A stretch of DNA of 64,000 bases from a virus: positions 1 to 64,000 of the IMG/VR virus record IMGVR_UViG_3300024264_000024. The stretch is one strand, 5' to 3'. The notes beneath the pieces were generated by a model. It made no database searches and was not told where the DNA came from. It saw only the letters and a program-made list of their open reading frames with translations. A program made the position numbers and the translations under genes. Shown here piece after piece: positions 8,510 through 46,300 of this stretch. Positions within the stretch are counted from its first letter, which is position 1, and each line of letters begins with the position of its first letter.

Positions 8510-8527
8510 TAAACTAAAAACTAAATT

Positions 8528-8827: not shown

Positions 8828-8858
8828 TTTGCTGTGTCAGATTAATTTATTATATTTA
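8828..8858 (+). promoter_or_regulatory. Flavobacteriia-type promoter ahead of the DUF932 gene
   Basis: TTTG at 8828-8831 and TATATTTA at 8851-8858 are separated by 19 bases, matching the known Bacteroidota/Flavobacteriia pattern (-33 TTTG, -7 TAnnTTTG) at seven of eight -7 positions. The start codon follows 20 bases downstream. This implies transcription by the host RNA polymerase with its primary sigma factor. Confidence 0.55.
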
Positions 8859-8878
8859 CACTTTAAAAGTTTATAACT

Positions 8879-9890: not shown

Positions 9891-9900
9891 TACTGTTATT

Positions 9901-10119: not shown

Positions 10120-10122
10120 CAC

Positions 10123-10476: not shown

Positions 10477-10482
10477 AAGAAA

Positions 10483-10662
10483 TTACTTTCCTTCGTACTG
10501 ATCCTTTATTATACCATTCATAGTACCTAATACAGTAGTGTTTGGATCAGGTCTAAAACCACCTTTACCTCCACCTTCTGAATACTTTACAATAGAACCA
10601 GATTCTCTTTTTATACCTGGTTCTACATTACCTAATACTTTATTTGTTTTTTCTTTTGACAT
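10483..10662 (-). CDS. Small Gly-rich basic protein (59 aa)
   Basis: ATG at 10662 (MSKEKTNKVL) to TAA at 10483. The middle contains KYSEGGGKGGFRPDP, sharing the Gly-Gly pattern seen in many late proteins of this phage. It overlaps the 40-residue upstream ORF by 23 bases and converges with the + strand gene ending at 10476. Codon use and composition look like those of its neighbours. Function unknown; a minor virion or assembly protein is plausible. Confidence 0.6.
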   Translation of the reverse strand: MSKEKTNKVLGNVEPGIKRESGSIVKYSEGGGKGGFRPDPNTTVLGTMNGIIKDQYEGK

Positions 10663-10762
10663 AACCTTTTAGTTTTTGTTTTAACCATTCATAATCAGGA
10701 TGAGATTTAGTAGCTAATAGTCTAAAAGAGATCTCATCTGCTAATTTATCTGCCTTATCCAT
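10640..10762 (-). CDS. Small basic protein (40 aa) coupled to the fibre gene
   Basis: ATG at 10762-10760 overlaps the TAA of the 1073-residue fibre gene by one base (TAATG), an arrangement repeated elsewhere in this phage. The peptide begins MDKADKLADEISFRLL and ends in a Lys-rich tail (LKGYVKRKNK); it is predicted to be helical and amphipathic. It may be a fibre chaperone or simply a coupled minor protein; nothing specific is recognised. Confidence 0.55.
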   Translation of the reverse strand: MDKADKLADEISFRLLATKSHPDYEWLKQKLKGYVKRKNK

Positions 10763-26600: not shown

Positions 26601-29385
26601 TTTTATCCATAACAGCTAACATAACATCTGTTGACGTAGCCATATCTCTTGTATAAAGATCTACCAAACTAATATCATCTGCTTGAGTCATTAAATCATC
26701 CAAGTCTTCCTTAGTAAAGTAACTACCATCAGCACCAAATTCATTTGATGATCTAGTTCTTATAACTTCTTTTACATAATTGTTTAGTGCGTCTTTTATA
26801 AGTCCTAAGTCAGTCTTTGATGATCCTCCTGTAAGTTTGTTAATGCTTTGACCCATTGTTAAAACCAATGATCTCTGTGTAGCATTTAACTCTTTTATCT
26901 CAGTACCTTCTAAAGTATGTAAACCTTTAAATTTGTTTATGAATCTATCAAAATTAAGTACATAAGTAATATATTCAGGCTTGCCAACATTCTTTGGATC
27001 TTCTATATACTCAGTAAAAGATCTAATTTGTTTTATTGCATCTTGTAATAGCTGAGTAAAAGCAACTGATCTAGCAATTGGACCCTCACTCTTTGCTATA
27101 CTTATAAAAGCAATAGCTAAAGCAAGTGATTCTGTTTCTGCAGTTTTTGTTCTATCCATATAGATAGAGCTTCTTACTTGTTCTATTGCAGTTTTAGTAT
27201 CTATCATAGCTGATTGATAAGTATTCAGTGCAGTTGCAATGACATTATACTCTGGAAACTTTTCTGCTTCTATCTTATCTGCTAATGTAGCATCTTCTTC
27301 TATTTGTTCTGAACCTCTAAACACTGCATCTTCAGCATTTTTTGTTTCTTCCTCAAGTCTTTCTGCATTAAGGTTATCTTGCAATAGTGGAACTAACATG
27401 TTAACCATGTTTATATTTTCACTAGATGGATGGTCAATTAATTGATCATATGTTATCCCTCCTGTAAATTTTTGATTTTGACCCTTACCTGTTATGCCTA
27501 CTGTAACATGTATAGTAGATGCAGCACGGTCCCCTTCAAATACTTTATACCCCATATTCTCAAACATTCTTCTGTACAAGTTCACTTGTAAGTTATGTTG
27601 AGTTCTAGTTGACAGCTTGTCTATACCTTGTTGTTTTAATAAACTCTCAGGAGAAAGGCCCCACTCTTTATCATAATATGACTTCTGTTGTCTACCGGCT
27701 TTAGTATCTATTATAGCTTGAGTACTTAAAGCATTCTTGCTTGTTTTTAAATCTACTATTCTAATACTACCATCTCTATCAACAATTACTAAATCAGCTG
27801 TACCAGCAAGTTTTGTTGCTTCATCAAAAACTACAACTTGTGTTAATGCTATTGAGCCTTCTGGCTTAATATTCTTTAATGTAGTATCTAGAATGTTGTA
27901 TGCTTCTTTTGCTTGCTCTTCATTTAACATGATCATTTGATCCATAACACTAGCTACAGATTCATTTGCTACCAAAGCATCTAACAATGCATCAACATCA
28001 TTTCCAATATCTAAATTAAGCTGTACATCTTTCTGATTAGCCAGCTTACCTTTAATTGCTGTAGTAACTGAAGTAAATATTTCACCATTAGTTATATCAA
28101 CATATGTATGGTCTGCTTTATTAAGTGTAACAATTGTTGATCCATCACTTGCATTAGCTGAATATGAATCAATAACTTCATCAACATTCATTGCTTGATG
28201 AAACAAGCGTTTGATGACTGCTCTTTGTGGACCACTTGATTCAGAAATAATTTTATCAATTAACTTTTGTTTCTTAGGCGTTAAGCTATATCTAACTTTA
28301 CCATCAACTCTCTTAGTTAATTTAAATTGGATACCCTCAGTATTTAATAGTTTAGCTATATCAGACATAGAACTATTTGAGTTAATAACATCTACAGTTA
28401 ATGGTCTACCTGTAATGTATTCATTAAGATTATTGATTACATTCTTAAACCATTCTAATAACTCTTTAATTTTTTCTACAAATCTTTGTGTAGGATTCTG
28501 CTCAAATTCTTTTTTAAAGTATCTAGCCAATCCTTGAGTTACTATTTCTAAGTCTCTCTCAACATCATTAAAGGTTCTTCCTTTGTTGTATTCTGCTTCA
28601 ATCTCTTGAACCATAGCAGGGAAGTTAGTAGTTACTTCACCAAGCAAACTGTTAAATAAACCTTCATTGTCTACTTTAACTGCGTCTATAAATGGGTGTA
28701 GTATTTCCTCAATTGCTGTCTCGTCTGTTACTCTTCCTTTTATTAAGTAAGCTGTACCATCTACATAAAATGAATTAACTCTAGAAAAGTTTACATTATT
28801 TTTTTTCCATGCAGGTAAAGACTCATATAGATTTTTTGCATCTGCTACACTTAACATTTTTATATCTACTTGTGGAAACATTTTCTTTAAATGTAATACC
28901 ACAGCTCTTGATCTTGGAGTATCCCATGATCTTGTTTTCTCTATTAAGTCTCTTGCTGTGAACATGTCTTCATTGACTTGCACAACATATGATTTAGGAG
29001 TTCTAGTTATACTTACAGTAGATTCAGGTATATTATTTATTTCTAAATATCTTTTTAATCTTTTTAAATTGCTAGATAAAAACATTTCATCATACTCCCT
29101 GGTTGCTGGATTAGAGTTATTCAAAAAGAATACCCCTTGATACATAGATCCTATTCTCTCTCTGCTTAAGTTTGTCAAAAGACTATCAGCAAAATCTTTT
29201 TGCTTTAATGAAAAAGCTATCTTTTGATCATTAACCATTTCTGCTGCTTCTAATACAGTAGGAAAAGCATCTGAGTTATTTAGCTCTTGCCATGTATTAA
29301 TAACATCATTAGTAACTAATTCAGTATTGTATACATCTTGCAATGCTCTATATTCTCCTGTATTTTTATTAGGACATTTTGCCAT
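23617..29385 (-). CDS. Giant virion (cargo) protein with PD-(D/E)XK nuclease and degenerate zincin segment (1922 aa)
   Basis: Last giant gene of the block. Residues about 150-350 resemble the zincin-containing region of the neighbouring 4659-residue protein, but the expected HExxH reads EEILH (226-230), with the first His replaced by Glu, so metal binding is probably lost. A PD-(D/E)XK nuclease is visible at about 430-640: E522, D531 in GTADLVIVD, then VDLKTSK with D545 and K547, then a Q-x3-Y-type helix (LQVNLYRRMF). Near the C-terminus are a hydrophobic span (IGIILSTLAISMIL) and a run of six Asp. The protein is probably packaged and ejected with the polymerase; the nuclease could attack host DNA or process the incoming genome. 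Function otherwise inferred from position. Confidence 0.75.
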   Translation of the reverse strand: MAKCPNKNTGEYRALQDVYNTELVTNDVINTWQELNNSDAFPTVLEAAEMVNDQKIAFSLKQKDFADSLLTNLSRERIGSMYQGVFFLNNSNPATREYDEMFLSSNLKRLKRYLEINNIPESTVSITRTPKSYVVQVNEDMFTARDLIEKTRSWDTPRSRAVVLHLKKMFPQVDIKMLSVADAKNLYESLPAWKKNNVNFSRVNSFYVDGTAYLIKGRVTDETAIEEILHPFIDAVKVDNEGLFNSLLGEVTTNFPAMVQEIEAEYNKGRTFNDVERDLEIVTQGLARYFKKEFEQNPTQRFVEKIKELLEWFKNVINNLNEYITGRPLTVDVINSNSSMSDIAKLLNTEGIQFKLTKRVDGKVRYSLTPKKQKLIDKIISESSGPQRAVIKRLFHQAMNVDEVIDSYSANASDGSTIVTLNKADHTYVDITNGEIFTSVTTAIKGKLANQKDVQLNLDIGNDVDALLDALVANESVASVMDQMIMLNEEQAKEAYNILDTTLKNIKPEGSIALTQVVVFDEATKLAGTADLVIVDRDGSIRIVDLKTSKNALSTQAIIDTKAGRQQKSYYDKEWGLSPESLLKQQGIDKLSTRTQHNLQVNLYRRMFENMGYKVFEGDRAASTIHVTVGITGKGQNQKFTGGITYDQLIDHPSSENINMVNMLVPLLQDNLNAERLEEETKNAEDAVFRGSEQIEEDATLADKIEAEKFPEYNVIATALNTYQSAMIDTKTAIEQVRSSIYMDRTKTAETESLALAIAFISIAKSEGPIARSVAFTQLLQDAIKQIRSFTEYIEDPKNVGKPEYITYVLNFDRFINKFKGLHTLEGTEIKELNATQRSLVLTMGQSINKLTGGSSKTDLGLIKDALNNYVKEVIRTRSSNEFGADGSYFTKEDLDDLMTQADDISLVDLYTRDMATSTDVMLAVMDKIYKAKKQELLDKIGQRETLIRNAGQKLLKLSNNKDLEKLYDFMLEYSDDGQFTGFYVKRIGQQYYQMQDEIRSRLYDNEGDPYYYRDITNLDDASKEDIDYNIKLANDKRALSDFFRAEIKNESGNPVDGEYHGYTQEFKDARDIYEYFVPGDESNPYGNWYRKPNISDAKYTTYEAKYYDMHAYTKAVRVNGQPIGSIVKDQSFRAAKKKFVTALSTSRSGRDMTSEKYGKIMKPNNALEQAQKEFYELFVGMFEGELLKMLPGGVMNQMTGRVPLVMNGVLNELKGKSSLYNKLYASTIGSRAWNTFKRTSSTKGISLDENNNLVNSMPIFYTGVPRTDAELDKVSKEIQAKKDELKKGEISSDDYKTDIAALNGKRQRLRSKPSMGQISTDLTSSLLKFSAMAQNYETMSTVEDTMNAFVKVIESREYEPSGDTKLTTVTKDGIKKAVGVKASTSTQQSNVERRAKKWINMVFYDNELISKGAFDKIADGLIQLSSLSYVAFNPFGNFNNYVIGRINNNIEMLGGRFYKKGSYMRSSAEFNKKALMSLVQRTSYTGESTRDLADIATFGMIPGLGKSDYDPKKANNKWEAFVDMFRMMDSMSDLREQGAGYETSQGRSWFERASEWGYVMQDAAEYNVQTKVGMAMLMDIVVKNTTKGHPLEGTELSFYDAFTYNSETHKNEIKEGFNTIIYNGVEQEYTDAIRYEIRNKIREVNKQIHGNYAKEDRMVIQSNTIGNLAAQFKKWVAPAVRARYQREYFDQNLGWMEGRYLSFWSFLGYAKREIMKGNIAFTTYGQGFMEAQVKTVTGKDGVKRKIGYDGKGGNADQRAQNKLFGFYRTMGEIGIILSTLAISMILDNILSDDDDDDLTKRLKNMIKYQAQRAYKETVIFNPIPGLGGYTQMRQMFDSPLAASRTMGELAEAMYYLVATPLAYTTQSKDEFYLNSEHVYQRGSKKGSLKVYKNWKDVLPIIYSIQKYNSYLQNDDFYMGTK

Positions 29386-29391: not shown

Positions 29392-32300
29392 CTATTTTAA
29401 TATGCAACGTTTAATATTATCTATAAAATCTTTCTGACTCTCTTCAGATGTCTTTGCTGCATCTTTAGAAAACCTGCTTTCATATGCCTCAATCATATTA
29501 GACAAAGGAAACAAATTTTGATTAATTAATGTCAGTCTAGCAGCTTTATCTTTTGTAATAGCATCAAACTCTTCAGTAATTATATCATAAGAATCAGCAA
29601 GTTCAAATTGTAAATCTAATGTAAGTTGTTCTTGTTCAGCTGTCATCTCTGGCATTGCTTGATCAACATCTTCTATTATATTTCCTTCTAATTCTTGTTC
29701 ATTTATTGATTGTTTATCATCTTTCTTTTGAGCCTTGAGTTGTTTTATATCTGATATATTAACACCTCTGCCTTCTACATCATAACTAATATTTACACCC
29801 TCTTCAGTAGCTGTAATTATTGAACTTTCATTTTTTAAAGCCTCTTGCTGAACAAACTTATTTTCATCAATTGACATTTCACTTATTTCTGATTCAATCT
29901 TTTTAACATCTAAAGCAGTACCTGCTACCCCTCCGTTGCTTCTTACATATTCTCTAACTTCAGTATATGTTGGTCTATCTCCAAACATAAATCCAATTCC
30001 ATTTTGTTGATTAGACCCCATTGTATCTACTTCATTAAATACATTTTGTTTGATAGATGATAACTGAGTGTTATATCTAAATGTCTTATATACTTTTTGA
30101 CCTGTTACATTACCAAAACCAACTCTTAAGTATTTAACTAATGGTGCCTCAGCAGATCCTTCTGTATTCTTTATTACTAATTTCTTTTCTGTTCTATCAT
30201 ATCTAACTGTGCTTGGTAATGGTGTTATTTCATCTGTCTCAATTGTAAACAACTTAGAGTTATTTGCATTAGATAATAAATAACCATCAGAAAATTCAGC
30301 TTTCATCTCATCTACTGTTATACCAAATGTATCTACAAATGATATTTCACCTTTCAGTGCTTTCTCAACAGATGGTAATGTATCTAAATAAGAAGTTAAT
30401 ACTACAGGGCTTATTACTGATAGTAAAGAACCATAGCCCAATTGTAAACCACCTTTAACCATTTCATAGTTAATGATTGTTTTAGCATCATTTCTAGTTT
30501 CTAATGAACCATACAGCTTAGCAAAGTCATTTTGAAGTTGAATCTTTTGACCCGCATTAAGTTGTCTAAATGTATTAGAGTTTGCTTGATTAAATCCTGC
30601 ATTACTTTCTGATGCTTTTGTTGTAATCACATAATTATCTAAGAAGAAATTATTCTTACCTACATCAGTAGTACGCAATCTATCAATAACATCTACTATA
30701 GAATTATATTCTGTTGGATAAATTATATCATTGCTTAATGTTGCTACTGACTGAGCATCACTATCCAAACCTTTTTTCTGATATGCTTTAATAGATAAGT
30801 AAGAAAGTAAATCTAATCTCACCTTTGCCATCACATCTTCTGTAAACTCTATTGTATTAGTGTTCATTTGACTAATAGCAGGATCTAATATTTCATTAAA
30901 CTGTGGTATTGTAGATATAAAAGTAGCAGGCAATAAATCATTTGTTATTTGAGTAAATATTTTCAAATAAGTATTTTGCCAAGTGTTTCCATAATATATA
31001 GGTTTTACATCCATAGGTAACTCTAAACCAGGAGCAGCATTAAATAAAGAAGCAGTGTCTTTATATTTTTGATTTACTTCAGCAATGCTAGCACCTAAAC
31101 CTTTTGTTAAACTAGTAGGAGCTCCCATCTTAGATGTAAATTCTTTTAGCTGTGTTCCTTTTGAAAACACATTAAGTATGCTCCACATTTCATCTGTACT
31201 CACATCTTCAGGGTTATTAAGTGCATCTATTAATAATGCATCATCAACACGTACAAATTTTCTTTTGCCTTTTACCCTTTCTAATTGTGCTATTGTAAGA
31301 TCTGTAAGCTTACTAACTCCCGGATCTAATTTAGAAGATTTGTTTAATGCCTGAGAATATATATCCTGTATAGTAGGATTATTAACTAATAGTAATGCTG
31401 TCTTTAATGGTACAGTCAATGCTGTTAAATTAGCCAATAAACCAACAGCATGTCTATTTAAACCTAACTTAGCAACCAAACGGTCTTTAGCATTATCAGT
31501 AGCCATTGTTATTAAAGCTGAAAGAACATCTTGCTTTCTACCTCCTTGTTTATATTCTGTCTTACCATAATCATTATAGGCTTGACCATTCAAATATATT
31601 GCAGCTTTCTTAGTAAGTTTAACGTTATACTCTGTAAGCAAGCTTAAGTATAAGTTAGGTAATACAACTGCTCCAATTGATGCCCCTTTATTAGCAGTAA
31701 ATGCTTTTATCTTACCGGTCATATTATCTACATCAATATTCCCTTCTTCAATTCTTTCTTTAAATACATCAGAAACTTCTGCTAGCTCAGCAAGAACACC
31801 TGTTCTAGTCTTAGCATCCCAAAGAACATTTGTATTTGCAGCTTGATAAGAAATAGGCACCCCATCCTTAGATTCAGAAACACCTTTGTTACCAATTAAA
31901 GCATATCTATAATCTAAAACTTGATTGTTTAATGGAGCTGCAAATGGTACACCATGTTTTTCATTATATGTATCAAATTGACTTGACGTAACTGGCAAAC
32001 CTAATGTTTGTAATGCTCTTATAGTTCTTTTTTCTAATCCTGCTTTTAATGCTGATTTTATTTGAGCATCTGTAACTTCAGTTGCTCCCTTTAATTCATT
32101 GCCTGCAAATAAACTTAATGCCTCAGAGTAAGTTGTACCTGGTGTATTTGTTTTTTGATTTGCATATCTAATATACTCTTCATATAAATTACCTTTACCA
32201 TACTCTATAAATTCTCCGTCTTGCACATAGAATTCTTTCATCAAAGAGAAAACCTTATCTATATCAAAATCTGCTCCTGATACTTCAACAAGTTCTTTTG

Positions 32301-35300
32301 CAAACATTGCTGTTGATCCATAGTATGCTGGTAGGAAATCTACCATCTTCATGTTTACAGCAGAATGATTATCTTGAGAAGGAATTCTTACACCAAACAT
32401 TTTTGATATTGCTTCTGGTAATTTAGCACTTGGTACATTTTCAATTAAGTCCATCACATTTTTATAATGTGAAGGCATCATCATCTCAGTATACCTCAGA
32501 CCAGTAGAAGTATTTTTATCTTTTGGGTCTGTATATTCCATAAGACCATGTCTTAAATCATCCAATACAATTAAACCTTCTGATAAACCTTTTGTGTCAG
32601 ATGTAATAGTATTTAGGTCAGTTAAATCATTTGTAGAATATTCTTCAGCAAATGTTTTTTCTCTAATTATCTCTGATCTAACAGGTATAGTAATAAAGTC
32701 TCCATTCTTTTCTATGGTTTCTACTTCATAAACTCTTCTATATACTTTGTTACCAAAATCTGATAACAGTGTAAGTGAAGTACCCGGTGATTTTTCTGAC
32801 AACACTCCCTTGCTAAAATAAGATAAGAATAGCTGTTCTGCTTTTTGAACAACCAACGGATTGTTAAGATCATAATTTTGAACACCATCAGTCATAGAAA
32901 AGAAATCTAATATTTGTTGACTAGACTTTGATGCTTTTAAACCTTCTTGTGCATAAGTAAGGAATGCTGCTAAATTTGGAGTAACCCCTCCTCCTGGTTT
33001 TGAAGATAATTTTAATTCATCTAATGCAGTCTCTAATGTAAAGACTAAGTTTCTTTTGTTTTTATAATTTAAAACAACTCTTTGTGAAATAGCTTTATTA
33101 TATGCTTTCTTAATTTCACCAACAGTTAATCCTAATGCCTCAACCTTTACATTATCTTTTTGTTCAGATGTAATTATTTGTTTGATCTGTGTAGGATCTA
33201 ACATCTCTAATTTATTACTTGGGTTAATTACTTGTAGACCCATATATCTAGCATCTAATTGTGTTGCAGGATTTGTAAATGGTTTAGGGTTATCTAATTC
33301 TTCTAAAGTATTAACACCTTGCTTCTTCATTTTAATTGCACTCAATGGAGCTGCAATACCTAATGTTTCTGCATTTGGTTCTGACTCAATTGCTTCTAAT
33401 TTAACTCTTAAATTGTGTAGCTTAACTCTATGTGGTTTAGCAATCCAGGTTCCATCTTCTAGTTGTCTAGAAGTAAACTCAGGTGTAAGAACAAAAGCAG
33501 ACATCTTAAGAAAAGTAGAACCATCTCCGTATACAAGCTTTTTAGAATTAAGCATTGCACCTTTTTTAATATATCCTTCTGATGCTTCAACTGATCCAAA
33601 TATATCATCAGAGGTAATGCTTTGACCTGCTTCTATATTATCTATCATAGCTGCTTGACTTGGGCTAAGTCTACCAAAACCAAACCATAAATATCTAAAT
33701 GCTTTAGTTGTAAGATACATTTGTGCATCAGCTTGATCAATGTTTTGTCCTGTTATACTAGATTCACCAACAGGCTCTTGTAAAGTTACCAGAGATATTT
33801 TTTCTACATTGTGTGTTACTCCATGTGATGGAGCACTAACAGCACTGTATGCACTATCATATGCAGCATTCTGCATTTTTGCTCTTTTAATTCTATCAAC
33901 TGAATCTTTTAAAGAGACAGCTTGATCACCAAGAATAATTTCATTAATTGCTCCTGTGTTTGCCCAGTCATTAAAAAATATTTGTTTTAAGTTATGAGTA
34001 GTATCATAATTAAGGTTGAGTAATCTAGCTGAATCAACTAATTCTTTTCTTTGTACACCTGCTGCATTAACCGGGCCTTCTGATACATTGTTAGATATAT
34101 CATTAAGCATGTTCAATTCAGTCAAGGTATTCATAAACTGATCAAAAGAGTTATTAAGATTAAGCTTGACATTATTCTTTAAAGCTTTTAATGTAGAGAT
34201 TTCTTTTATTGCAGCATCAAGAGTTATTTCTTTTTTTGCTTTTCCTTCTCTAATAGCTATTTGTCTTAGCTTTTCCTGTACATCACTTGATATTACTGTA
34301 GAGTTATTAGTAAACTGATATGCTCTACCATTTTTTGTATTGTAACCTAGAATTTCATTCTCTTGAGTAAGAGAGTCCATTGTAAATGCTTCTCTATTTA
34401 TTCTTGCAAACTCAGTTCTAATTCTATCTACAAATACATTAATTAATTTATCTGATAAAGTTGATGTACCATTATTAAAATCAACAGCCTTTAATACAGG
34501 CAGTGATATTAAATCTCCAGTATTAGACGCTTCCATTACTCTAATTAATACTGGTGCCAATGCTCTTTTAAACTTGTTTCCTTTTACATCTACTCCCTCA
34601 ACACTATCTACTTTATTACTCTTAGTATTTAATAATGCTGTATAGTTATTGATTACAGCTAATGCAAACTCTTGAGATGTAAAATCTCCATATGTTTGTG
34701 TAGAAGTAATTCCTGTGATACTATCATTTAAATCTTGTTCAGATGATAAAACTTGTCCAACTTTACTCCCCGCTATTCTTAAAACCTTTAATCTATTTTC
34801 AGCAGATAACAATTCAAAAGCTGCACTATTCAATAAGAAGTTATTTAATAAATATTCATCAGAAAGTTTTAACTCATCTATTTTACCTGGGTTATTTAAA
34901 TCAGCAATTGATTTTAAATGTAACGTAGGTTTTTGATGAGCGTATACTAAATCACCATTTGGATTTTTAAATACTGATGCACCAATAGTTTCATCAAACG
35001 GTGCACTGTGTATACTCATTTCTCTTAACCTAGAGTCCATACCAGAATCATCAGTAGCAAAAATATCAGCATTGTTTTGTATTATATCAGACATCATTTT
35101 TATATCTGTAGCAAGCAATGGTGTTTCATCACTATATAAATTAACTAATGCTTTTTGTTTTACTGTGTTTTTAGGTCTGTTTTGTAATATACTATATTGT
35201 AAATACAAAGGGCTTAACCTTATACCTACCAAATCAAATAGTTTTCTTGAAAAATCTAGTGATATATCTGAAAGAGCTTGATTAGTCAATGTTGTTTTAG

Positions 35301-38300
35301 AGCTAGCTTTCTTATCTTTTTTTGCAGGTTGTTTCTTTCCACTCAGATAAGTTTCAAACTCTTCAAGCATAGTAAGCGTTTGGTCTTTTGTATTTTTATC
35401 TGATTTAATTATTTTCCATTTGCTTATCCAAGCTTGATTCCATCTGTCAAGTTGAGAGTTTATATCATCTCTTTGAGCTGCAGAATAAATTCTAATATTA
35501 CCAAGCTCATCTCTTTCATTAAATATGTAATCTACTCTAAAGTTTTCAAATGCTTTTACAACAGATTGTAATAAACTAGGATTAGTAAGATTACCCAATG
35601 ACTTAGAACTTACTAATTCATCAGTAGTAATTCCAACATCTTGTAATAATCTATTTACTACTGCACCTACTTGTGCATTTTCCTGACCAAAGAAATACAT
35701 GCTTTGTAAAATCTTTTTTGGATCAGATATATTTTTAACTGCTTTAAGCAAACCATTGTAAGCTTCTACAAAATCTACAGCAACAATTAAAGGTACCCCA
35801 TCTTTTAATTCTGTATTACCAAAGTAATCTGTTTCAGATAAAGTAGTAGTAGCAATATATGTTTTTAGCTTAGAGGATAAAGAGGTATGTCCTCCTATTA
35901 AAGAAGCATCAATATCATATTGTGATGTGCTTCTTAAACCTGTACTATCTTCTAATTCATCTAATGTATAATCAGTTTCATTAATTTGATCACCTAAAAC
36001 ATTTAGTAATTTGATTACTTCTGTTTTAATTTCTACATCATATATATCAAAAGCTTCTTCAATCTCTTCTAACTTTTCAATCTGAGTATCACTCTTTTCT
36101 AAGTTATTTGGATTTGATGGGCTATATAACCATGCAAAATCATTTAGTATTTCATCCATTTCAACGGCAGGACTATATGTTGCTTCTGTAATTTTAGATG
36201 TCCTATCTAAATACATAGCAGCAATACTTCTAATCAAAGGATCTGCAATATCATTATCTAAGTATAAATAACCTGTTCTTACATTTCCACTGTTATCTTC
36301 CGTTTGTATTGGACTATAAGGTACTAATGCATTTGCTTCTAGTGTTACACCTTCCTGTAAACTTTGTGTAAACTCATTACTAGCTAATGGAGCATTTTGA
36401 TATTTACCAGCGTCAATGCTTTCAAATAAAACTGATAGCTCATTTTTAGCAGGTGTGCTAAATAAAGTTTTAATAAAATCAAGAATTCTTGTAAACAAAG
36501 ATTTTATCTCTGGAGAACTCTTAGTTTTTGATGGAGACATTTTAAACTTCTCAAACTCATCTGCTAAATATTCTTCATAGTATTCATTCATTAACTCTTT
36601 CTCAGTCATATTACTATATGTATCTGCAGAGTTTCTAAATATTTCTAATTCTGTTTTAAAGTTTTTACCCTCAGATCTTAACTTAGCTCTTACTTCTTTT
36701 CTAGCAATAGAACGGTATCTTTGTATTTCTGTATCAGATAATAACATTCTAAACACACTATGAAAAGCTTCATGATATTTAAAAGGAGATGTGGCACCAG
36801 TATAAATAGTTCCGTCAACTGTAAGTCCTCCAGCAATATTTTTTAAAGACATTACAAAGGCTCCAACTCTCATACCGCCAGCCTTTTGATTGTTTCTTAG
36901 CTGATCTATATCTTCTATAGTAATGTATGATGGTAAAGCTCCTAATGCCCAAGCACTAAATGTATCTATATTCTCAATTTCTTGTTCATTTAATTCTGTA
37001 AAAGGAAGAATCTTATTACTTATGTTACCTAGCTTTCTTACTTTTTCTTTTAGCTTCTGATACTCTTCATTATTCTTTAATACTTTACGTACACTTCTGC
37101 CATCTACACCTTCAGACAATTTAGCTTTTAAAGCTTGTAATTCAGCTTGAGCTACAGCCAATGGTGTATTTGAAGTTTGTTGTGTTGGTTCTAAATAATC
37201 AACACCTCTTTGAAACCAAGCCTGTATTTTTCCTCCTAGACCAGGTATTGCAGATTTGGCTTGTTCTAGTGATACTCCGTTAGCTTTAAGTGACTCTGCT
37301 ACCTCAAAACCTGAAGCATCTATGTTAAAAAATAAACCTCCTCCAGTGTAGATAGATATTAATTCTTTTACACCAGGGCTTCTTTCACCAGTATACTCTA
37401 TGTCATTGTTAATAGTTACAGATCCTGCACCACCTTCTTTTGCAACTAACATATTGATTTTACTTTCTAAAAACTTATATGCTTGTTGTTCACGTGCTGA
37501 TAACTCTTCACCTCTTACTATTTTGTTTACTATGTGACCTAAGAATTCTTTTTTAAAGGTTGCAAACTCTTCTTCCAGTTGTGCATCAAACTCTGCATCA
37601 GATAAATCAAGTATACTTTCTGCTGCTTCTTCAGCAATTGTATATTGAGCATTAGGTTTTACATCATTAGTTTTATTATCATTAACTGTTGCAGCAGCAT
37701 CTCTTGAAGCTTGAATGTCTGCAGATGTTCCTATAACTCTTAAAGACTGATTTTCTATAACACTTGGTAATACATTAGTTTCAGAATTATTTATAACTTC
37801 TTCAACTGATGCTGTATCAGCAAATGATCTTCTTAAATTGTTTACTGTAACATTTACTCCAGCAAGATTAATTTCTGTGTCTTCATTAAAATTGTTAATT
37901 AAAGTTTGAATTTTTTTAACAGAAGACATCTTCTTGTCATTTATAATCTTTTGATTAATGGTTATAGTCTCACCTACTTGCTTCTTACTATTCTTATCAA
38001 AAACATCCATTTGTATTTTACCCCATGGAGTTACTTGTAAAGCTACACTGAAACCTGGTTTAGTACTTATGAATAAACCATTGGACAAATCATCATTGTA
38101 TTCTATATTATATGCTTCATTTTTTGCTTCACCTTTCTCATCTAGGTTTTCTTTTTGAGTTAGCTGTGCTCTCTCAATAAGTTCTGTATATAAATTTTCA
38201 ACTTCTTCCTGTGAAAATCTAGTGGTTTTTAAATTAACTAATCCGTATTGACCGTTAGGTAAAAGTACAGCAGCTAAATATCTATCTGTTCCTGCAATCA

Positions 38301-41300
38301 TAGCATCCCATTGCCCAGACTGCTCTAGTGCTGTCTTAACTTTATTTCTTAATGCTGTTGCATCTCTTCCTTCTAAGTTAGTTTTAGATTGGATAGTTCT
38401 TCCTCTACCTCCTTTATCTCTTTTAAGATCATAAACCAAGTAGTTACCTTCTGTATCTGCATGTTGATAGTTTAAAGAACTTAAGCTTCTTGATTCTTGT
38501 AGCTCTTTTGGACCATATGCCATTTGTGCTCCACCTATAGAAAGCCCAATATCTTTTGGAAAAGCTTGTAATAACATAGCTGTTGGCTCAGATATATTCA
38601 TACCATCTAATGTTTCAACTAACATTGCATTTAATGCAAAATTATTACGTGCTAATTCTAGTGTCTCTTCTTTTGTTAGATTATTAGATATTGCTTTAGG
38701 TACATATAATGTATTTAAAGCTTGTTCTTTTGTTATATTACGTGGGTCAATTGGGTTTTTCTGGTTATCATAAAACACATATGACTCATTAGGTAAGTAT
38801 GCAAAAATACCATTTACATCTTCTGATACTTGAAACCCTGCTTCTCTTAAGCTTTGATTAACTTTATTTCTAACTTTTTCATCTGCTATTCTAATTCCAA
38901 TATCATACTTAGATTTTATTCTACGTATATATGGATTAGATTCTTTATATACTTTACCATCAGAACTTTCTATAGCATAGTATCTACCTAACTTCCCTGC
39001 TTCTGGGTTTGGAATTACGTATAATTCAAGTTGAGCAAGTTCAACAGGGGATAACTGTGATATAATATGATTATATCTTTGTTGAGCTAATGCTCTGCTT
39101 TCTTGATTGTTCTTATAAGGATATGGAGATATAACATCATTGATCTCTAATCTACTTGTAGTTGCAGGAAGCAGATCCATTTTAATTTCTTGTAATGAAT
39201 ACCTTCCTTTAAATTGTCCAGGTTGTAATTTAATTACAGACTTTTCTCTTTCTTGTAAGTTATTAGTATTCTTACTTGCTTCTATAATTCTTAAGTATCC
39301 ACCTTGAACTTGTTTAGGTGTACTCAGCACTATATACTTGTTACCCAGTTTATCAAATAATATTTCACCTTGTTGTAACTCAACTTCATCAAATAAAAAT
39401 GTAGCTGTATCTGGTGCAGTTGCTTCAATCTTTTTAAGTGCTGCTACTGCTTCTGCAGGCGTACTAAAAGCACCAAACTTAGAGTCTATAAGTTCTAGTA
39501 GTTTGTTTGATATTGGATTACCATTGTTGTCAACCAATTTATATATTTCTACTAGCTCTCCAGTTTCTTGGTCTTTAGTTTTTATTCTAATTATACTAGC
39601 TTTTGCACCTCTTTTATATATCTTTCTATTCTTATTTCCTTTAAGAGTATCACCTTCTTGACCTAAATCAGTTTCTGACTCAACAATATCAGTTATAACT
39701 AAACCTGCTTGATCTAATATTCTTTTTACAATAGGGCTTTCTTTAACTTCTCTTGTTTTAAACCAATCTTTGAATCCTTCTTCTTTAGTAACATTCTCTC
39801 TAGTTACAACTGTCTTATAAGGATTACCTTCACTATCTGCCTGTAGTACAACTCCTGATGCCCATACTCTCTTTAAAGCATTAAACGTGTTCTGAAAATT
39901 TAAACCATCTATACTGTTTCTCCACTCTTCAAATAGTAATACATTCTCTCCACTTATTGCTGCTGTTGCTTTATACTTTCTATATTGTCTTTCTAACAAT
40001 TCATTTAGCATAGGTGTGTCATTAGTTTTTTCTAATTCTACATCTACACCTAAATCTTTTAGGATGTCATTTTGGTCTGTTCTGGTTTCTTCTGCCTTTT
40101 CTGTTTCTTTTTTTTCTGTGGCTTCTGTTTTTTCTTCAGTTGCCCTAGTGCTGGTATAGTGTTCAATAATCCTTTCAATTTGACCATATAATATTGTATC
40201 TATTTTAGGTTCTACTTTACCATTCTCATTATAAAAAGTCTTTAGATTTGATATATCACCTGTTTGCAAAAACGCTTTTGTTTCTGATGGATCAGGATAG
40301 ACACCTAATGCAGCCAACTGATTCATTACTTCATTTGTCTCAGTAATTTCTAAATACTTTTCAATAGATGCTTGCACTTGACTTTTAATATTCTTATACA
40401 AGTTTTGACCATACTCAACAGTTCTTTGTGTTATCTCATTAAGTCTTGCTGGATTAGATAAATACTCTACAGCTTTATCATATACCTGAGCTCTTCCTTT
40501 TAATGCGTGATAATCAACTAACTGTTTTAAAGCATTGTCTACTTTATCTCTCTCTAAAAAAGATCCTTCTGTAGATGCTAAGTATCTTACATAGTTTTTA
40601 AACGCTGGTCTTAGCTTTGTAATTTTTCTTCTATCAAATGCACCATTCTTAGTTTGATTCTTTGGATCAGAAATAACTTTTAATATACTTTGTAAGTTAT
40701 CAATCTTTTGTTGTTTTCTTTTATTTGTTTCTCCTACACCTTGATTAGGTACTTTTGCAGAATTCTCATCTATCTCAATAGTACTCATTATCTCTTGTGT
40801 AAGCAATGCTATCTCTCTATTTATATTATCAATAGAAGTTAAAATAGAAATGTCTTTAGCTGCCATTTTTTCAAATAAAGGCTCCATCTCTAAACTACTA
40901 AAAATAGATTCTGATCTCTCTAAGGCTCTCTCAAAATTATCTTGAGTATACATAAGCAAATACTTTGCATGCTGGTACCCTTGATAATTTAATGCTTCTA
41001 AAGCAAACTCTCTTGTGCCTACTTCATATGCTGATGGGTCATAAGGGTTTTCAAACTTATCATTAAGATTATTGTAGTTTGATTCTGTTTTTTCTGCATA
41101 GTTGATAAAGTCTTGTATACGCCCTCTAATCTTTCCATTTGCAATATCCTTAGCTTCCCCAGGGAATGCTTGTAATAACTCTTCATCAGTTAGCTTTAAA
41201 TAATCTTCAAGTTGTTCAGTAAATTGTTGTATACCCCCTTGAGATAATAATGTATGTATCTGACTAAACTTAGCAAGATCTTTTTGATCAATGAAACCAA

Positions 41301-43371
41301 ACATATCTTGATCATATGAACTGGTTTTCATTCCTTCTGAAACTTGCTTCTGAATTAAATAATTAAATTTTGTCTTATCAAATATAGCACCTGGGTTATC
41401 TACTTGACTGTTCCATGCTTTATTCCAACCATTTACTGCTTCTTGAACTAAATCTTTTCTGTTCTTTTTATATTCAGCATATTCAGCTTTCATTTTTTCT
41501 GTACCAAACTTACCCTTACCAGCTTCATATATAGCAGGAACCCCTTGGAAAAATAACTTTTGTGGTCCTTGGATAGCACCACCCATTAAGAACCCAGACA
41601 TAAATACACTAAAACCTTCTCCAGATAATTGATGTCCCATACCTGATGAAATCATTTGATTTCTAAGCGTAATACCACCAGCCATTGGGTCATTTAATAC
41701 AGCAGTAAAGTATCCTTTAGTTGCTGCTGATACAGCTTCTTGAGAAACTTCTTGTATACCTTCTGCCACATTATTAGAAAAGTATCTTAAGGATGCACCA
41801 GCTGCATTAGATAAACTACCTTTAACACCTGCCGCTCTTAATCCTCTTAAGTATCCTTTTAAACCTGTTCCTGAAGCTTCAAAAACATTTTTGTTAAGTG
41901 CTCCCGTTGCTGATCTTGTGGCTTTTGTTTTTATTATCTTTCCTCCTAATCCTTTTCTAAAGGTATCATTCATCATTCTACCTAAAGACTTATTAAAACC
42001 ACCTAATGCATTTCCTAATACAAACCAGTTACTTGCATATATAATAGGTGCGTTAGCCATTTGAGTATAAAATCCTGCCTTGCTTGATTTCTCTCTTATA
42101 ACTTTCATCTCTTCAGGAGAAACCTGAGCATTATTTCTTACATTAAACTTTATCTCTTTGCCATCAACAATTTTTGTTTCTAGATTATTTTTGTTATAAG
42201 TATCAATACCAGTTCTCATAACATCATTATAAACCATACCAGCTTCCATCTTGGATTCAGCCATTGCATAATTTACCATTCTTACATCTCTATAAAAACC
42301 ACCAAAAGTGCTAGACATCTTTGCTAAGTTTACACCATTTTGAGTTGCATTTTGTGCAGTCTTAAAATTCTTAAGAGCATACATTGTATTAGGAACAAAC
42401 ATTTGTCCTAAAACTTTACCTCCTGTTTTAGCTGCATCATAGAAACTCTTAGCATGTTCAGCATTTCTTAAAGTTCTATATATGTCTCTAGTTGTACCTG
42501 CAAATCTACTAACATTAAAAAAGTTTTTAAATGCATTACCTGCTCTACCAACATTTATAGCGGTTCTAACTCCAGCAGCAGGTGCTGCTCCTCCTCCAGT
42601 TAGTACTGTTGCTCCTGCCATAGCTAATTCTTCTACAGCAATAGAGCTTAATATACCAACAGTATAAGCACTGTTTAATAGAAAGTTGTTTGTCCATGCC
42701 ATACCACCACTTCTGCTTGAATTACCAATGCCCATTGCATCTTCAAACTCACTTGCAGATTCTAAATCAGGTGCTGACCAGTATGAATCTCCATCAAAAG
42801 CATCACCAATAGATCTGTATACACTACTAAATCCTGAGCCAGCTAAACTTGTATACTGACTCCACATTCTAGTCATATCATCGTATACTGTACTGTTAAC
42901 ATTATAATAAGATTCCATATTTGCATATGGACTAAAACCTAAATCACTAAAATCTGGATGTTTGTAATATCTCATAAATTGACTCTGTCTCATACCAGCA
43001 AAGCCAGGTGCTACTCTTTCATCTCCTGTTGTATCATTTAATGTAAATGCACTTTTTAATTTTGAATAAGTATTATCAGGAGGATTTTGTTGATCAACAG
43101 GATTGTATGTATCTGTTGCAAAACTTGGAACAGCTATGCCCAAACTTGCCATAGCATCAATACCATACTTTTGTATATCAGTTTTGTATAAATCTACTCT
43201 AGCCACAGAATCAGGATCAGTTGCAAGAGCATCTGCCAGAAGCGTGTCTGGTGTATCAAACATTTCTGTTATAGGTATAAAGTTAGGTTGACCTGCAGGT
43301 GTTATACTCATTGCAGGTCTTTGGTTGTTATCTATAGTTTCCTTTAAGGCGTTCTTAGATTGGTTCTCCAT
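29392..43371 (-). CDS. Giant fused virion RNA polymerase of crAss-like type with zincin-like domain (4659 aa)
   Basis: One uninterrupted frame of 4659 codons. The catalytic signature SGADFDIDK (DFDID, residues 3701-3705) with upstream RIPSQDNHSAVNMK and DFLPAYYGS is that of the crAss-like virion RNA polymerase (phi14:2 gp66 type), which carries the Mg-binding aspartates of the double-psi beta-barrel; NKGASIGAVVLPN and RKQDVLSALITMATDNAKD lie further on. The N-terminal about 700 residues contain alternating Ala/Gly-rich hydrophobic helices, suggestive of membrane passage. A HEAFH motif at 2200-2204, followed by EEYLADEFEKF, indicates a zinc-metallopeptidase-like domain. A charged Glu/Lys/Thr linker lies near 1075-1105. 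In known relatives the polymerase is ejected and transcribes early genes. phi14:2 gp66 is about half this size, so this is a multi-domain fusion. Confidence 0.9.
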   Translation of the reverse strand: MENQSKNALKETIDNNQRPAMSITPAGQPNFIPITEMFDTPDTLLADALATDPDSVARVDLYKTDIQKYGIDAMASLGIAVPSFATDTYNPVDQQNPPDNTYSKLKSAFTLNDTTGDERVAPGFAGMRQSQFMRYYKHPDFSDLGFSPYANMESYYNVNSTVYDDMTRMWSQYTSLAGSGFSSVYRSIGDAFDGDSYWSAPDLESASEFEDAMGIGNSSRSGGMAWTNNFLLNSAYTVGILSSIAVEELAMAGATVLTGGGAAPAAGVRTAINVGRAGNAFKNFFNVSRFAGTTRDIYRTLRNAEHAKSFYDAAKTGGKVLGQMFVPNTMYALKNFKTAQNATQNGVNLAKMSSTFGGFYRDVRMVNYAMAESKMEAGMVYNDVMRTGIDTYNKNNLETKIVDGKEIKFNVRNNAQVSPEEMKVIREKSSKAGFYTQMANAPIIYASNWFVLGNALGGFNKSLGRMMNDTFRKGLGGKIIKTKATRSATGALNKNVFEASGTGLKGYLRGLRAAGVKGSLSNAAGASLRYFSNNVAEGIQEVSQEAVSAATKGYFTAVLNDPMAGGITLRNQMISSGMGHQLSGEGFSVFMSGFLMGGAIQGPQKLFFQGVPAIYEAGKGKFGTEKMKAEYAEYKKNRKDLVQEAVNGWNKAWNSQVDNPGAIFDKTKFNYLIQKQVSEGMKTSSYDQDMFGFIDQKDLAKFSQIHTLLSQGGIQQFTEQLEDYLKLTDEELLQAFPGEAKDIANGKIRGRIQDFINYAEKTESNYNNLNDKFENPYDPSAYEVGTREFALEALNYQGYQHAKYLLMYTQDNFERALERSESIFSSLEMEPLFEKMAAKDISILTSIDNINREIALLTQEIMSTIEIDENSAKVPNQGVGETNKRKQQKIDNLQSILKVISDPKNQTKNGAFDRRKITKLRPAFKNYVRYLASTEGSFLERDKVDNALKQLVDYHALKGRAQVYDKAVEYLSNPARLNEITQRTVEYGQNLYKNIKSQVQASIEKYLEITETNEVMNQLAALGVYPDPSETKAFLQTGDISNLKTFYNENGKVEPKIDTILYGQIERIIEHYTSTRATEEKTEATEKKETEKAEETRTDQNDILKDLGVDVELEKTNDTPMLNELLERQYRKYKATAAISGENVLLFEEWRNSIDGLNFQNTFNALKRVWASGVVLQADSEGNPYKTVVTRENVTKEEGFKDWFKTREVKESPIVKRILDQAGLVITDIVESETDLGQEGDTLKGNKNRKIYKRGAKASIIRIKTKDQETGELVEIYKLVDNNGNPISNKLLELIDSKFGAFSTPAEAVAALKKIEATAPDTATFLFDEVELQQGEILFDKLGNKYIVLSTPKQVQGGYLRIIEASKNTNNLQEREKSVIKLQPGQFKGRYSLQEIKMDLLPATTSRLEINDVISPYPYKNNQESRALAQQRYNHIISQLSPVELAQLELYVIPNPEAGKLGRYYAIESSDGKVYKESNPYIRRIKSKYDIGIRIADEKVRNKVNQSLREAGFQVSEDVNGIFAYLPNESYVFYDNQKNPIDPRNITKEQALNTLYVPKAISNNLTKEETLELARNNFALNAMLVETLDGMNISEPTAMLLQAFPKDIGLSIGGAQMAYGPKELQESRSLSSLNYQHADTEGNYLVYDLKRDKGGRGRTIQSKTNLEGRDATALRNKVKTALEQSGQWDAMIAGTDRYLAAVLLPNGQYGLVNLKTTRFSQEEVENLYTELIERAQLTQKENLDEKGEAKNEAYNIEYNDDLSNGLFISTKPGFSVALQVTPWGKIQMDVFDKNSKKQVGETITINQKIINDKKMSSVKKIQTLINNFNEDTEINLAGVNVTVNNLRRSFADTASVEEVINNSETNVLPSVIENQSLRVIGTSADIQASRDAAATVNDNKTNDVKPNAQYTIAEEAAESILDLSDAEFDAQLEEEFATFKKEFLGHIVNKIVRGEELSAREQQAYKFLESKINMLVAKEGGAGSVTINNDIEYTGERSPGVKELISIYTGGGLFFNIDASGFEVAESLKANGVSLEQAKSAIPGLGGKIQAWFQRGVDYLEPTQQTSNTPLAVAQAELQALKAKLSEGVDGRSVRKVLKNNEEYQKLKEKVRKLGNISNKILPFTELNEQEIENIDTFSAWALGALPSYITIEDIDQLRNNQKAGGMRVGAFVMSLKNIAGGLTVDGTIYTGATSPFKYHEAFHSVFRMLLSDTEIQRYRSIARKEVRAKLRSEGKNFKTELEIFRNSADTYSNMTEKELMNEYYEEYLADEFEKFKMSPSKTKSSPEIKSLFTRILDFIKTLFSTPAKNELSVLFESIDAGKYQNAPLASNEFTQSLQEGVTLEANALVPYSPIQTEDNSGNVRTGYLYLDNDIADPLIRSIAAMYLDRTSKITEATYSPAVEMDEILNDFAWLYSPSNPNNLEKSDTQIEKLEEIEEAFDIYDVEIKTEVIKLLNVLGDQINETDYTLDELEDSTGLRSTSQYDIDASLIGGHTSLSSKLKTYIATTTLSETDYFGNTELKDGVPLIVAVDFVEAYNGLLKAVKNISDPKKILQSMYFFGQENAQVGAVVNRLLQDVGITTDELVSSKSLGNLTNPSLLQSVVKAFENFRVDYIFNERDELGNIRIYSAAQRDDINSQLDRWNQAWISKWKIIKSDKNTKDQTLTMLEEFETYLSGKKQPAKKDKKASSKTTLTNQALSDISLDFSRKLFDLVGIRLSPLYLQYSILQNRPKNTVKQKALVNLYSDETPLLATDIKMMSDIIQNNADIFATDDSGMDSRLREMSIHSAPFDETIGASVFKNPNGDLVYAHQKPTLHLKSIADLNNPGKIDELKLSDEYLLNNFLLNSAAFELLSAENRLKVLRIAGSKVGQVLSSEQDLNDSITGITSTQTYGDFTSQEFALAVINNYTALLNTKSNKVDSVEGVDVKGNKFKRALAPVLIRVMEASNTGDLISLPVLKAVDFNNGTSTLSDKLINVFVDRIRTEFARINREAFTMDSLTQENEILGYNTKNGRAYQFTNNSTVISSDVQEKLRQIAIREGKAKKEITLDAAIKEISTLKALKNNVKLNLNNSFDQFMNTLTELNMLNDISNNVSEGPVNAAGVQRKELVDSARLLNLNYDTTHNLKQIFFNDWANTGAINEIILGDQAVSLKDSVDRIKRAKMQNAAYDSAYSAVSAPSHGVTHNVEKISLVTLQEPVGESSITGQNIDQADAQMYLTTKAFRYLWFGFGRLSPSQAAMIDNIEAGQSITSDDIFGSVEASEGYIKKGAMLNSKKLVYGDGSTFLKMSAFVLTPEFTSRQLEDGTWIAKPHRVKLHNLRVKLEAIESEPNAETLGIAAPLSAIKMKKQGVNTLEELDNPKPFTNPATQLDARYMGLQVINPSNKLEMLDPTQIKQIITSEQKDNVKVEALGLTVGEIKKAYNKAISQRVVLNYKNKRNLVFTLETALDELKLSSKPGGGVTPNLAAFLTYAQEGLKASKSSQQILDFFSMTDGVQNYDLNNPLVVQKAEQLFLSYFSKGVLSEKSPGTSLTLLSDFGNKVYRRVYEVETIEKNGDFITIPVRSEIIREKTFAEEYSTNDLTDLNTITSDTKGLSEGLIVLDDLRHGLMEYTDPKDKNTSTGLRYTEMMMPSHYKNVMDLIENVPSAKLPEAISKMFGVRIPSQDNHSAVNMKMVDFLPAYYGSTAMFAKELVEVSGADFDIDKVFSLMKEFYVQDGEFIEYGKGNLYEEYIRYANQKTNTPGTTYSEALSLFAGNELKGATEVTDAQIKSALKAGLEKRTIRALQTLGLPVTSSQFDTYNEKHGVPFAAPLNNQVLDYRYALIGNKGVSESKDGVPISYQAANTNVLWDAKTRTGVLAELAEVSDVFKERIEEGNIDVDNMTGKIKAFTANKGASIGAVVLPNLYLSLLTEYNVKLTKKAAIYLNGQAYNDYGKTEYKQGGRKQDVLSALITMATDNAKDRLVAKLGLNRHAVGLLANLTALTVPLKTALLLVNNPTIQDIYSQALNKSSKLDPGVSKLTDLTIAQLERVKGKRKFVRVDDALLIDALNNPEDVSTDEMWSILNVFSKGTQLKEFTSKMGAPTSLTKGLGASIAEVNQKYKDTASLFNAAPGLELPMDVKPIYYGNTWQNTYLKIFTQITNDLLPATFISTIPQFNEILDPAISQMNTNTIEFTEDVMAKVRLDLLSYLSIKAYQKKGLDSDAQSVATLSNDIIYPTEYNSIVDVIDRLRTTDVGKNNFFLDNYVITTKASESNAGFNQANSNTFRQLNAGQKIQLQNDFAKLYGSLETRNDAKTIINYEMVKGGLQLGYGSLLSVISPVVLTSYLDTLPSVEKALKGEISFVDTFGITVDEMKAEFSDGYLLSNANNSKLFTIETDEITPLPSTVRYDRTEKKLVIKNTEGSAEAPLVKYLRVGFGNVTGQKVYKTFRYNTQLSSIKQNVFNEVDTMGSNQQNGIGFMFGDRPTYTEVREYVRSNGGVAGTALDVKKIESEISEMSIDENKFVQQEALKNESSIITATEEGVNISYDVEGRGVNISDIKQLKAQKKDDKQSINEQELEGNIIEDVDQAMPEMTAEQEQLTLDLQFELADSYDIITEEFDAITKDKAARLTLINQNLFPLSNMIEAYESRFSKDAAKTSEESQKDFIDNIKRCILK

Positions 43372-43382: not shown

Positions 43383-46300
43383 TTATTTTTTACCGTTAAC
43401 AGATACATCTTTTTCTTTGGCTAATCTATTTTGTTCTCTTAAATTAAACAAAACTTGTTGCCAAGACACAACTTGTTTATCTAGACCTTCAAGCCCTTGA
43501 CTCATATCTATTTGTGTAGTATTTTCTTCAACAAGATATTGTCCTCCTTCTTGATAGGTGTGTGTTTTAGAGTATACATAGTATCCACCTTTTTCTTGAA
43601 CAATTCTATATGTACCTGTAGGATTAAGCCCATCTGCAACAGTATAATCTGCAAAACCTTTTTTTGCAATATCAGCTTGTACAAAAGAATAATATGTTTT
43701 TTTATCTGCTTTTGTATTTTGATCAACCTCTTGTTCATAGAGAAAGAATACACCTGAATCTGTAGTTGGATCATCTTCATCATTTGTAATACCTTGTAAA
43801 AATTTTATCTCTTCACCTGTTAAAGCTCCTATCTCACTTGAGTTTGCAGTATTAGTTCCTATTCTTTTGCTTGCTAACCAATCTGAACTGAATACAATTC
43901 TATATCCAGCAAAATTTTTCTCACCATCTTCTGATAAACCAACAACTGGCATGTATACAATTTTAGCAGCTGGTGCTTTTTGACCTGTAGAAACAGCAGG
44001 TCTTTTATTACTTAACCATAATGCTGCATCATCCTTCCATATATTAAATGCTTTAACTGCTATCTCACTCTTCATATTAGTTAACTCATCACTTGATCCA
44101 AATTGATCAATTGACCCAGCAAACATTCCATATGGTCTTCCTTCTGCATCTAATGTATTCATTTGTGTAATCATCTGGAAAACTTCTTTTTCAGCTAGCT
44201 CATTTTTAACCATAGGATTAAAATTTCTTTCATAACTATTGTTACTAACTACATCAGAATAATTTCCACTATAACCATATATTTCTGAATCAAGATCTCT
44301 TACTTCAAAGTTCCCTGTCTTACCTGATAATGCATCATTAAGATTTGTATATAATGCATTATAGATTAACTCAGCTTCTTCTTTCACAGCAGACATATCT
44401 ATAACCTTTCTACCTGTTTTTTCTGATCTAACTTTATCTACTATAGGTCCTTCACCACTTCTACCCTTATATGTTGTATACTTGATCTCATCCATCAGAT
44501 AACCAGAATCTGAAGTACCGGTATCCCACCCATCTAGATCTGGATTAGTAATATTACCATTATTAATTCCTTCTACTACTTTATCAAGATATTCATCTTT
44601 TGTAAGTATTGTTCTATCAGTATCTAGAATATCAGGGAAGCCAGATTTATATATAGATACTAAATTTGCATCAGTACCATCAACTACATTTCCTCTTGTA
44701 GCTTCATATGCTTTTGCATAGTTATCATGCACATTAGTAATAAAAGTATTCAGTGCATTAACTTGTGTGTTGGTTCCATTAAGACCGGCAATCTCATTAT
44801 ATAAATCATCATATTGAGTTCTTTGATCACTACCTAAAGTTAATTCTGGATTAAGTCTAGTAACATCAGCTGTATTAGTAAAGCCTGTAGATACATAACC
44901 ATATATAGAATTAATTGCATCTCTGTTTATATACCCAACCATTTGTTGATCTTCTCCTTTACCTTCAATTTGTGGATCTAATAATAAAGAAGTCATTTCA
45001 TCTAATGAGTTTGCAGTAAACTTATCTGTACCTCCTGTACTGTTTGGTATTTCTATTTCATAAATGCCTGTACCCATTTGCTCTGGAGTTGCATCTGTTC
45101 CTGTTGGATATAATAATTTTAAAGCTCTTGTTATTTTATCAACTTGATTAACAGCTAAAGCATTATCCTTTTCTAGGTACTGTGCTGCTGTTCTTTCAAT
45201 CATATTAGCATTTTGAGTAACTTCTCCATCTTCATCTACTGGTACATCTATTGTATTACTATTACCTCTAGTAACTCTATTACCTTTTAAAAGCTCAATC
45301 AACGGATCATTTTCACCATTCTCATTTACCAACTCACCTTTCTTTCTTGCTAAATCTTCATCAAGTTCAGCCTTATATTTTATTCTAGCAAGATGGTTAA
45401 TTTGATTAGCTTTCATCTTAGCTAGATCATATTGATATTGCTGATCATTTAAAGCAAATTTACTTTCTCTTATTAAATATTCTTGATCTCTTGCAGAGTA
45501 TGATTGTGCAGCTGCTGTTAAATCACTCATTATATTATGATTCATTAACATACTATAAGCCTGATTTAATGAACCATCAACAGTATTTGGTTGATTATTA
45601 CCTTGAGTTTGAATACCTTTTAATTTATCTAAAGCTATTTGTGTTGCTTCTGCTGCAGATAAATTTTCTAACATTGCATTATCATCATCAGACCCTTCTA
45701 TAATTCCATTTTTCTTTTTATAGTTTGCCCATCTAACATTTGCATTTTCTAATTTAGTTAACTCTTGACCAGTTTCTTCAATTCTTTTATTGTTAATCTC
45801 AGTAATTCTACCTATTGTTTCACTAGCCCATGCTTGTTGACCTTGTTCAACATTACTAAATGTACCTTCTTGTATACCTTTATCTGCAAATTGTCTGCTT
45901 TGCACAAAAGATCTTTCTGCATATGCTCTTTGAACTCTAGGGTCATTCAACAATGCTCCTTCTAAAGTTTGTAAAGCAGCTCCAGTTATGAGTCTACCAT
46001 TCTTTTCAGTAATAATAAAATTACCATTAGGCCCTGGTCTATCCATCTTCATACTAAGATTAGGATCCATGTCCTCTAAGATTTGTGTAGCTAATTTAAA
46101 TAGCTTTACATCATCTACATACTTTGGTACTGTCATGCCTAATGCTTGTTCTGATGAAGCATTAACAAAATCTTGCATTCTATAATTTAAACCTTGTTCT
46201 CCTATATCCCAATATCTTTCATGCATATCTTCACTAGGACTATTTCTTAATCTTTCAGCATGTTTCATTTGATCTTTATAGTTTGAAGTATAAACTATAT

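Follow-up and report, generated by a model that had tools for sequence, protein, structure and literature searches.

The window analysed here comprises bases 1-64,000 of a 71,646-base virus record, a linear metagenomic contig. On its minus strand, an open reading frame at 29392-43371 encodes 4,659 amino acids with 0 internal stops, corresponding to a calculated mass of about 519 kDa. The first-pass annotation described it as one fused protein, roughly double the size of the virion RNA polymerase gp66 of phage phi14:2, and this is correct, with 4,659 against 2,180 residues and a frame that is open throughout. The encoded chain begins with an ejection-type portion and also contains a protease-like domain and an RNA polymerase. 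The features of the protein and its neighbours are as follows.

29392..43371, minus strand: complete fused protein of 4,659 aa, with N-terminal module, zincin-like domain and virion RNA polymerase
37372..43371, minus strand: N-terminal module, residues 1-2000, corresponding in position to the N-terminal portion of crAss001 gp47
42604..42660, minus strand: residues 238-256 (VGILSSIAVEELAMAGATV), a hydrophobic and conserved segment, borderline for a transmembrane helix
37012..37674, minus strand: variable stretch, residues ~1900-2120, a linker directly preceding the zincin-like domain
36367..36972, minus strand: zincin-like domain, residues ~2134-2335, with homologues in the Suoliviridae giants and at the C-terminal end of crAss001 gp47
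36760..36774, minus strand: HEAFH motif, residues 2200-2204
29392..36354, minus strand: virion RNA polymerase region, residues ~2340-4659, equivalent to phi14:2 gp66 (2,180 aa) and crAss001 gp50 (2,412 aa)
32257..32271, minus strand: catalytic DFDID motif, residues 3701-3705
23617..29385, minus strand: next gene, a 1,922-aa protein with C-terminal homology to crAss001 gp49 ('RNA polymerase subunit')
43383..46622, minus strand: upstream gene of 1,079 aa at the crAss001 gp45/gp46 cargo-gene position, its putative function assigned from position only
52282-57294, minus strand: 1,670-aa protein encoded among the virion genes, carrying a YkuD domain (L,D-transpeptidase-like) and two LysM domains
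57294..63662, minus strand: crassvirus muzzle protein of 2,122 aa (PF25731, E 7e-24, above cut-off)

The gene content identifies the phage as crAss-like. Upstream of the giant gene lie three large genes at cargo-gene positions, the LysM/L,D-transpeptidase-like protein and the muzzle protein, while the next gene is the gp49 homologue, which also carries a PD-(D/E)XK nuclease domain at residues 463-568. This assignment rests on the muzzle protein, the virion RNA polymerase and the gp49 homologue, together with TerL homologues (E 1e-18 to 1e-23) on eight of ten relatives' contigs. The window's own 71.6-kb record, which is a fragment, yielded no TerL, and the search for the major capsid protein was weak (two of ten contigs).

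The DFDID motif at residues 3701-3705, taken in the first-pass annotation as the mark of the polymerase, belongs to a genuine crAss-type virion RNA polymerase, as indicated by both profile and structural matches. The degenerate DNA pattern for DFDID has a chance expectation of 0.01 occurrences. Using the C-terminal 3,000 residues as query, tblastn matched annotated crAss RNA polymerases around this motif, and the context G(A/S)DFD(I/V)D is kept across relatives. In hhalign comparisons, residues 2950-4150 matched the phi14:2 enzyme (gp77 in the record, published as gp66) at 98.7% with an E-value of 2e-16 over 883 columns, crAss001 gp50 at 99.0% and Intestiviridae gp44 at 99.1%. An AlphaFold model of residues 2950-4149 reached a moderate mean pLDDT of 66.7, and Foldseek returned the phi14:2 structure 6VR4_A as its sole significant match (E 1.3e-19). 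VIA-align of the same model gave Z 17.9 against 6VR4, with 559 aligned residues at an rmsd of 14.2, with the two-barrel polymerases QDE-1 and RDR2 ranking next (Z 5-6). Segment 213-435 of the model superposes on QDE-1, RDR2 and bacterial beta' regions, with pLDDT below 50 near DFDID; since confidence is that low there, it is homology, not the model, that supports a barrel at the motif. When the core alignment was run as a HMMER profile against PDB sequences, nothing matched at E up to 1. That the motif is incidental and the protein a structural or tape-measure-like one devoid of polymerase activity would agree with the 0 significant Pfam or PHROGs matches for the whole 4,659-aa protein and with the weak model at the motif, but this reading is highly improbable given the 883-column profile match, the unique significant structural match to 6VR4 and the G(A/S)DFDID context kept in relatives.

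The polymerase is located C-terminally, as proposed in the first-pass annotation, but it occupies the C-terminal half of the protein (residues ~2340-4659) and not the C-terminal third. The distance from the end of the zincin-like domain to DFDID is about 1,366 residues, compared with 1,361 separating DFDID from the N-terminus in the phi14:2 enzyme, and from these nearly equal distances we place the start of the polymerase near residue 2340.

A zincin-like motif had also been noted in the middle of the protein, and it is found there as a conserved HEAFH at residues 2200-2204. Together with a downstream EExxA(D/E)xF it is common to the sampled members of the window clade, crAss001 gp47 and the Suoliviridae, apart from one clade member with EExxAN, and both HExxH and EExxA(D/E) rank among the most conserved positions. 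The candidate third metal ligand is Glu 2266/2267 in EEYLADEF. The region matches crAss001 gp47 at 96.5% in hhalign; a Pfam search for a zincin in the domain gave no match, and a 1,081-residue model containing the domain gave no significant PDB match. The domain is probably an active or ancestral metalloprotease. It is directly preceded by the conservation minimum at residues 1900-2100 (0.27-0.36 for 1901-2100).

The N-terminal module is the least well connected part. Residues 1-2000 matched no characterised protein; their best match was weak (57.9%), to a 1,552-aa protein of Leptolyngbya phage Lbo-JY46, and hhalign detected no profile homology to the N-terminus of gp47. Of the membrane-type helices previously proposed at the N-terminus, one conserved hydrophobic segment at residues 238-256 could be retained, but with a Kyte-Doolittle value of 1.48 and two Glu residues it is moderately hydrophobic and lies under the usual transmembrane threshold. 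As a separate observation, phage Lbo-JY46 (L016 30603-35261 and 42845-47809), which is on record from the cyanobacterium Leptolyngbya, encodes a homologue of the muzzle, and a DFDxD motif is absent from the stretch that was read.

The fusion is not peculiar to this contig. Intact homologous reading frames occur in further IMG/VR contigs (L002, 4,639 aa; L003, 4,659 aa; L004, 4,641 aa; L005 and L006, 4,491 aa; L007, 4,755 aa), and a wider IMG/VR scan yielded 302 relatives, from which 78 loci were analysed, several of them corresponding to contigs of the L002-L007 set. HExxH lies upstream of DFDxD within one reading frame at 70 of the 78 loci (69 with HEAxH, and L084 with HEGFH), at a spacing of 1448-1755 residues compared with 1501 in the window protein. 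The remaining loci comprise five cut by the contig end, two split by frame breaks and one, L082, that carries no zincin motif. We had considered L084 as a zincin-less locus and rejected this on account of its HEGFH. L082 is the same contig as L022, which encodes a shorter giant of 3,288 aa (4088-13969) without the zincin motif that matches the window protein solely from residue 3056 onward. A split N-terminal module was considered for L022 and rejected, as its upstream reading frame has no match to the window protein; the region before the matching part has no match either, and its GDNTQRKGIGGQA stretch looks macro-domain-like by eye. The C-terminal tail also varies among relatives: relative to the near-identical L032 and L042, L044 carries an insertion at residues 4436-4614 and L033 at ~4455-4579, with net sizes of 163 and 146 aa, respectively.

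An assembly error or chimera joining separate genes, an objection raised in the first-pass annotation, might be suspected for a linear metagenomic contig with a few relatives split by frame breaks (L020/L080, L043 and L139), but it has practically no chance of being correct, as the intact fused frame recurs with similar spacing in dozens of contigs and is also found in Suoliviridae genomes.

Within the Suoliviridae, cr50_1 encodes a protein of 4,774 aa with HEAFH at 1665 and DFDID at 3154, a distance of 1,489 compared with 1,501 in the window protein. Five further giants of 4,328-4,946 aa (cr118_1, cr1_1, cr10_1, cr53_1 and cr109_1) have the same order, so that all six Suoliviridae giants examined share with the window protein the arrangement of an N-terminal module, a HEA(F/Y/W)H zincin and a DFD(I/V)D polymerase in one reading frame; in cr109_1 and cr53_1 this frame requires readthrough of recoded stop codons. 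Profiles of the window family and the Suoliviridae giants are collinear over the zincin (98.3%), the region between (95.6%) and the polymerase core (99.5%), whereas their N-terminal modules have no detectable homology and the C-terminal extension of cr50_1 is longer than that of the window protein. Using the zincin-polymerase stretch of cr50_1 as a tblastn query, at least 80% of the stretch was matched in one place in 25 phage records. The deposited giants carry diverse labels: cr50_1 (L059 16826-31150), cr118_1 (L060 2865-17705) and cr109_1 (L061 2994-15980) are labelled DNA helicase or DprA-like, and the others nuclear pore-like, exonuclease V or hypothetical.

The statement that these parts are separate genes in other crAss-like phages thus needs to be narrowed. 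It is true of phi14:2, crAss001 and p-crAssphage, but not of the six Suoliviridae giants, and polymerase fusions of other kinds exist in p-crAssphage and Flavobacterium phage Fpv1. The phi14:2 enzyme (2,180 aa, PDB 6VR4), a two-barrel virion RNA polymerase, shares DFDID with the window protein, but it is encoded by a separate gene, and the upstream gp78 (1,797 aa) has no HExxH; gp76-gp78 are annotated in the record as virion proteins from MS/MS. In crAss001, the C-terminal zincin of gp47 and the polymerase gp50 match the two halves of the window protein and gp49 matches the next gene, but three genes encode them, gp49 and gp50 on one strand and gp47 on the other. All three are virion cargo by mass spectrometry (PMC10172136). 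In p-crAssphage (Carjivirus communis), gp44 is a 4,070-aa polymerase fusion adjoining a zincin-bearing protein; unlike in the window, the polymerase is N-terminal and joined to a downstream partner, and the zincin lies on the neighbouring gene. Fpv1 gp33 (4,401 aa) resembles the window protein in joining a DYDID polymerase to a long N-terminal module, and its gene likewise follows the muzzle and two smaller genes, but HExxH is absent upstream of the polymerase. A more distant parallel, compared by its description (PMC10770324), is gp96 of Thermus phage P23-45 (5,002 aa), a single virion protein in which RNA polymerase, metallopeptidase and transmembrane domains are combined; unlike the window protein, it is a siphophage tape-measure protein with an N-terminal polymerase. 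Chaban et al. 2024 (PMC10770324) report gp96 as full-length in virions and note that fusions of virion RNA polymerases to large proteins occur in crAss-like phages, and a review describes crAss RNA polymerases of up to ~6,000 aa as a hallmark (PMC10136315). A literature search on a crAss zincin or crAss fusion found no match, the transcription-gene-block figure of Yutin 2021 lying outside its scope. Since the same fusion is already present in deposited crAss-like gut phages, the window protein does not represent a new machine.

In a tree of the RNA polymerase core, the window clade is separate and does not group with the Suoliviridae but sits on its own long branch with support of 100. The Suoliviridae, phi14:2 and Fpv1 form a group (support 90-94), as do crAss001 and the Intestiviridae (76). 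Because of the long branches, the rooting is uncertain and the tree does not decide the order of fusion and separation. No annotated genome was found for the window clade, for which one IMG/VR scan gave 302 relatives. The zincin-polymerase fusion is conserved in this large crAss-like clade and reaches beyond the gut Suoliviridae.

Overall, the reading frame very probably encodes a virion RNA polymerase, packaged by an environmental crAss-like phage and made as one chain with the counterpart of crAss001 gp47 and p-crAssphage gp45. Because the zincin is homologous to the C-terminus of gp47, the protein reads as a gp47-like and a gp50-like part head to tail, followed by the gp49 homologue, and the distances to DFDID fit a gp47-gp50 junction. 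Packaging, ejection and early transcription are functions we infer from the relatives crAss001 and phi14:2. By analogy with crAss001, the capsid would hold the fused protein until it leaves via the tail barrel before the DNA does, probably in a partly unfolded state, with the N-terminal module leading or docking at an envelope channel. The polymerase of the C-terminal half, with its two predicted barrels, would then refold in the cytoplasm and transcribe early genes, perhaps, more speculatively, while still attached at the entry channel. The zincin-like domain directly precedes the polymerase, and any cleavage of the chain, of cargo or of an envelope target is speculative. The self-contained ejection, processing and transcription machine envisaged in the first-pass annotation goes beyond the evidence, given the marginal N-terminal segment and the separate large proteins encoded at cargo positions and as the gp49 homologue.

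Regarding the role of the zincin, there is close to an even chance that it is an entry tool acting on the host envelope or on other cargo proteins, with the polymerase attached for co-delivery only. This would account for its retention in fused giants as well as on a separate virion protein of crAss001, and metallopeptidase domains have been described as characteristic of many tape-measure proteins (PMC10770324); however, we found no substrate, signal or structural match to a known envelope protease. Alternatively, the giant might be a self-processing polyprotein, in which the zincin, acting in assembly or on entry, would cut close to either the variable linker or the 2335-2400 junction and release a gp47-like piece and a gp50-like polymerase. 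The strong conservation of the HExxH and EExxA(D/E) motifs, the highly variable linker in front of the domain and the occurrence of the halves as separate genes in Steigviridae and Intestiviridae are compatible with this unlikely scenario. However, Fpv1 gp33 and the 3,288-aa L022 protein stay fused without a recognisable zincin, and P23-45 gp96, also with a metallopeptidase, is full-length in virions (PMC10770324). Moreover, crAss001 keeps the zincin although its halves are separate genes, and the domain must therefore have a use besides cutting the junction. As the zincin is kept where the halves are separate and some fused proteins do without it, self-cleavage is possible but not favoured. 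An elaborate variant, which we regard as improbable, is a self-timed entry machine: after ejection the zincin would free the polymerase from an envelope-anchored N-terminal module and so make transcription begin in step with the entry of the DNA; in this variant fusion would be the ancestral condition, with gp47 and gp50 arising by gene splitting.

The fused protein ties the zincin on crAss001 gp47 to the polymerase as a consistent partner, and this offers a direct mutational test of the domain's role in ejection. Furthermore, labels such as DNA helicase, DprA-like or nuclear pore-like on deposited giants are misleading, and the finding should be useful for their annotation.

Two further observations concern other genes of the window. 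A full-length phage-encoded GroEL/Cpn60 lies at 6878-8509 on the plus strand (PF00118, E 6.5e-74); among 15 records searched, 11 gave no match, the relatives G002 and G005 gave full-length matches, and G009 gave partial matches in one frame. The C-terminal stretch of the muzzle protein shows von Willebrand-like motifs by eye (DIVIAIDWSGST...VTDGTDG), and a similar stretch is present in a 742-aa protein at L012 12857-15085.
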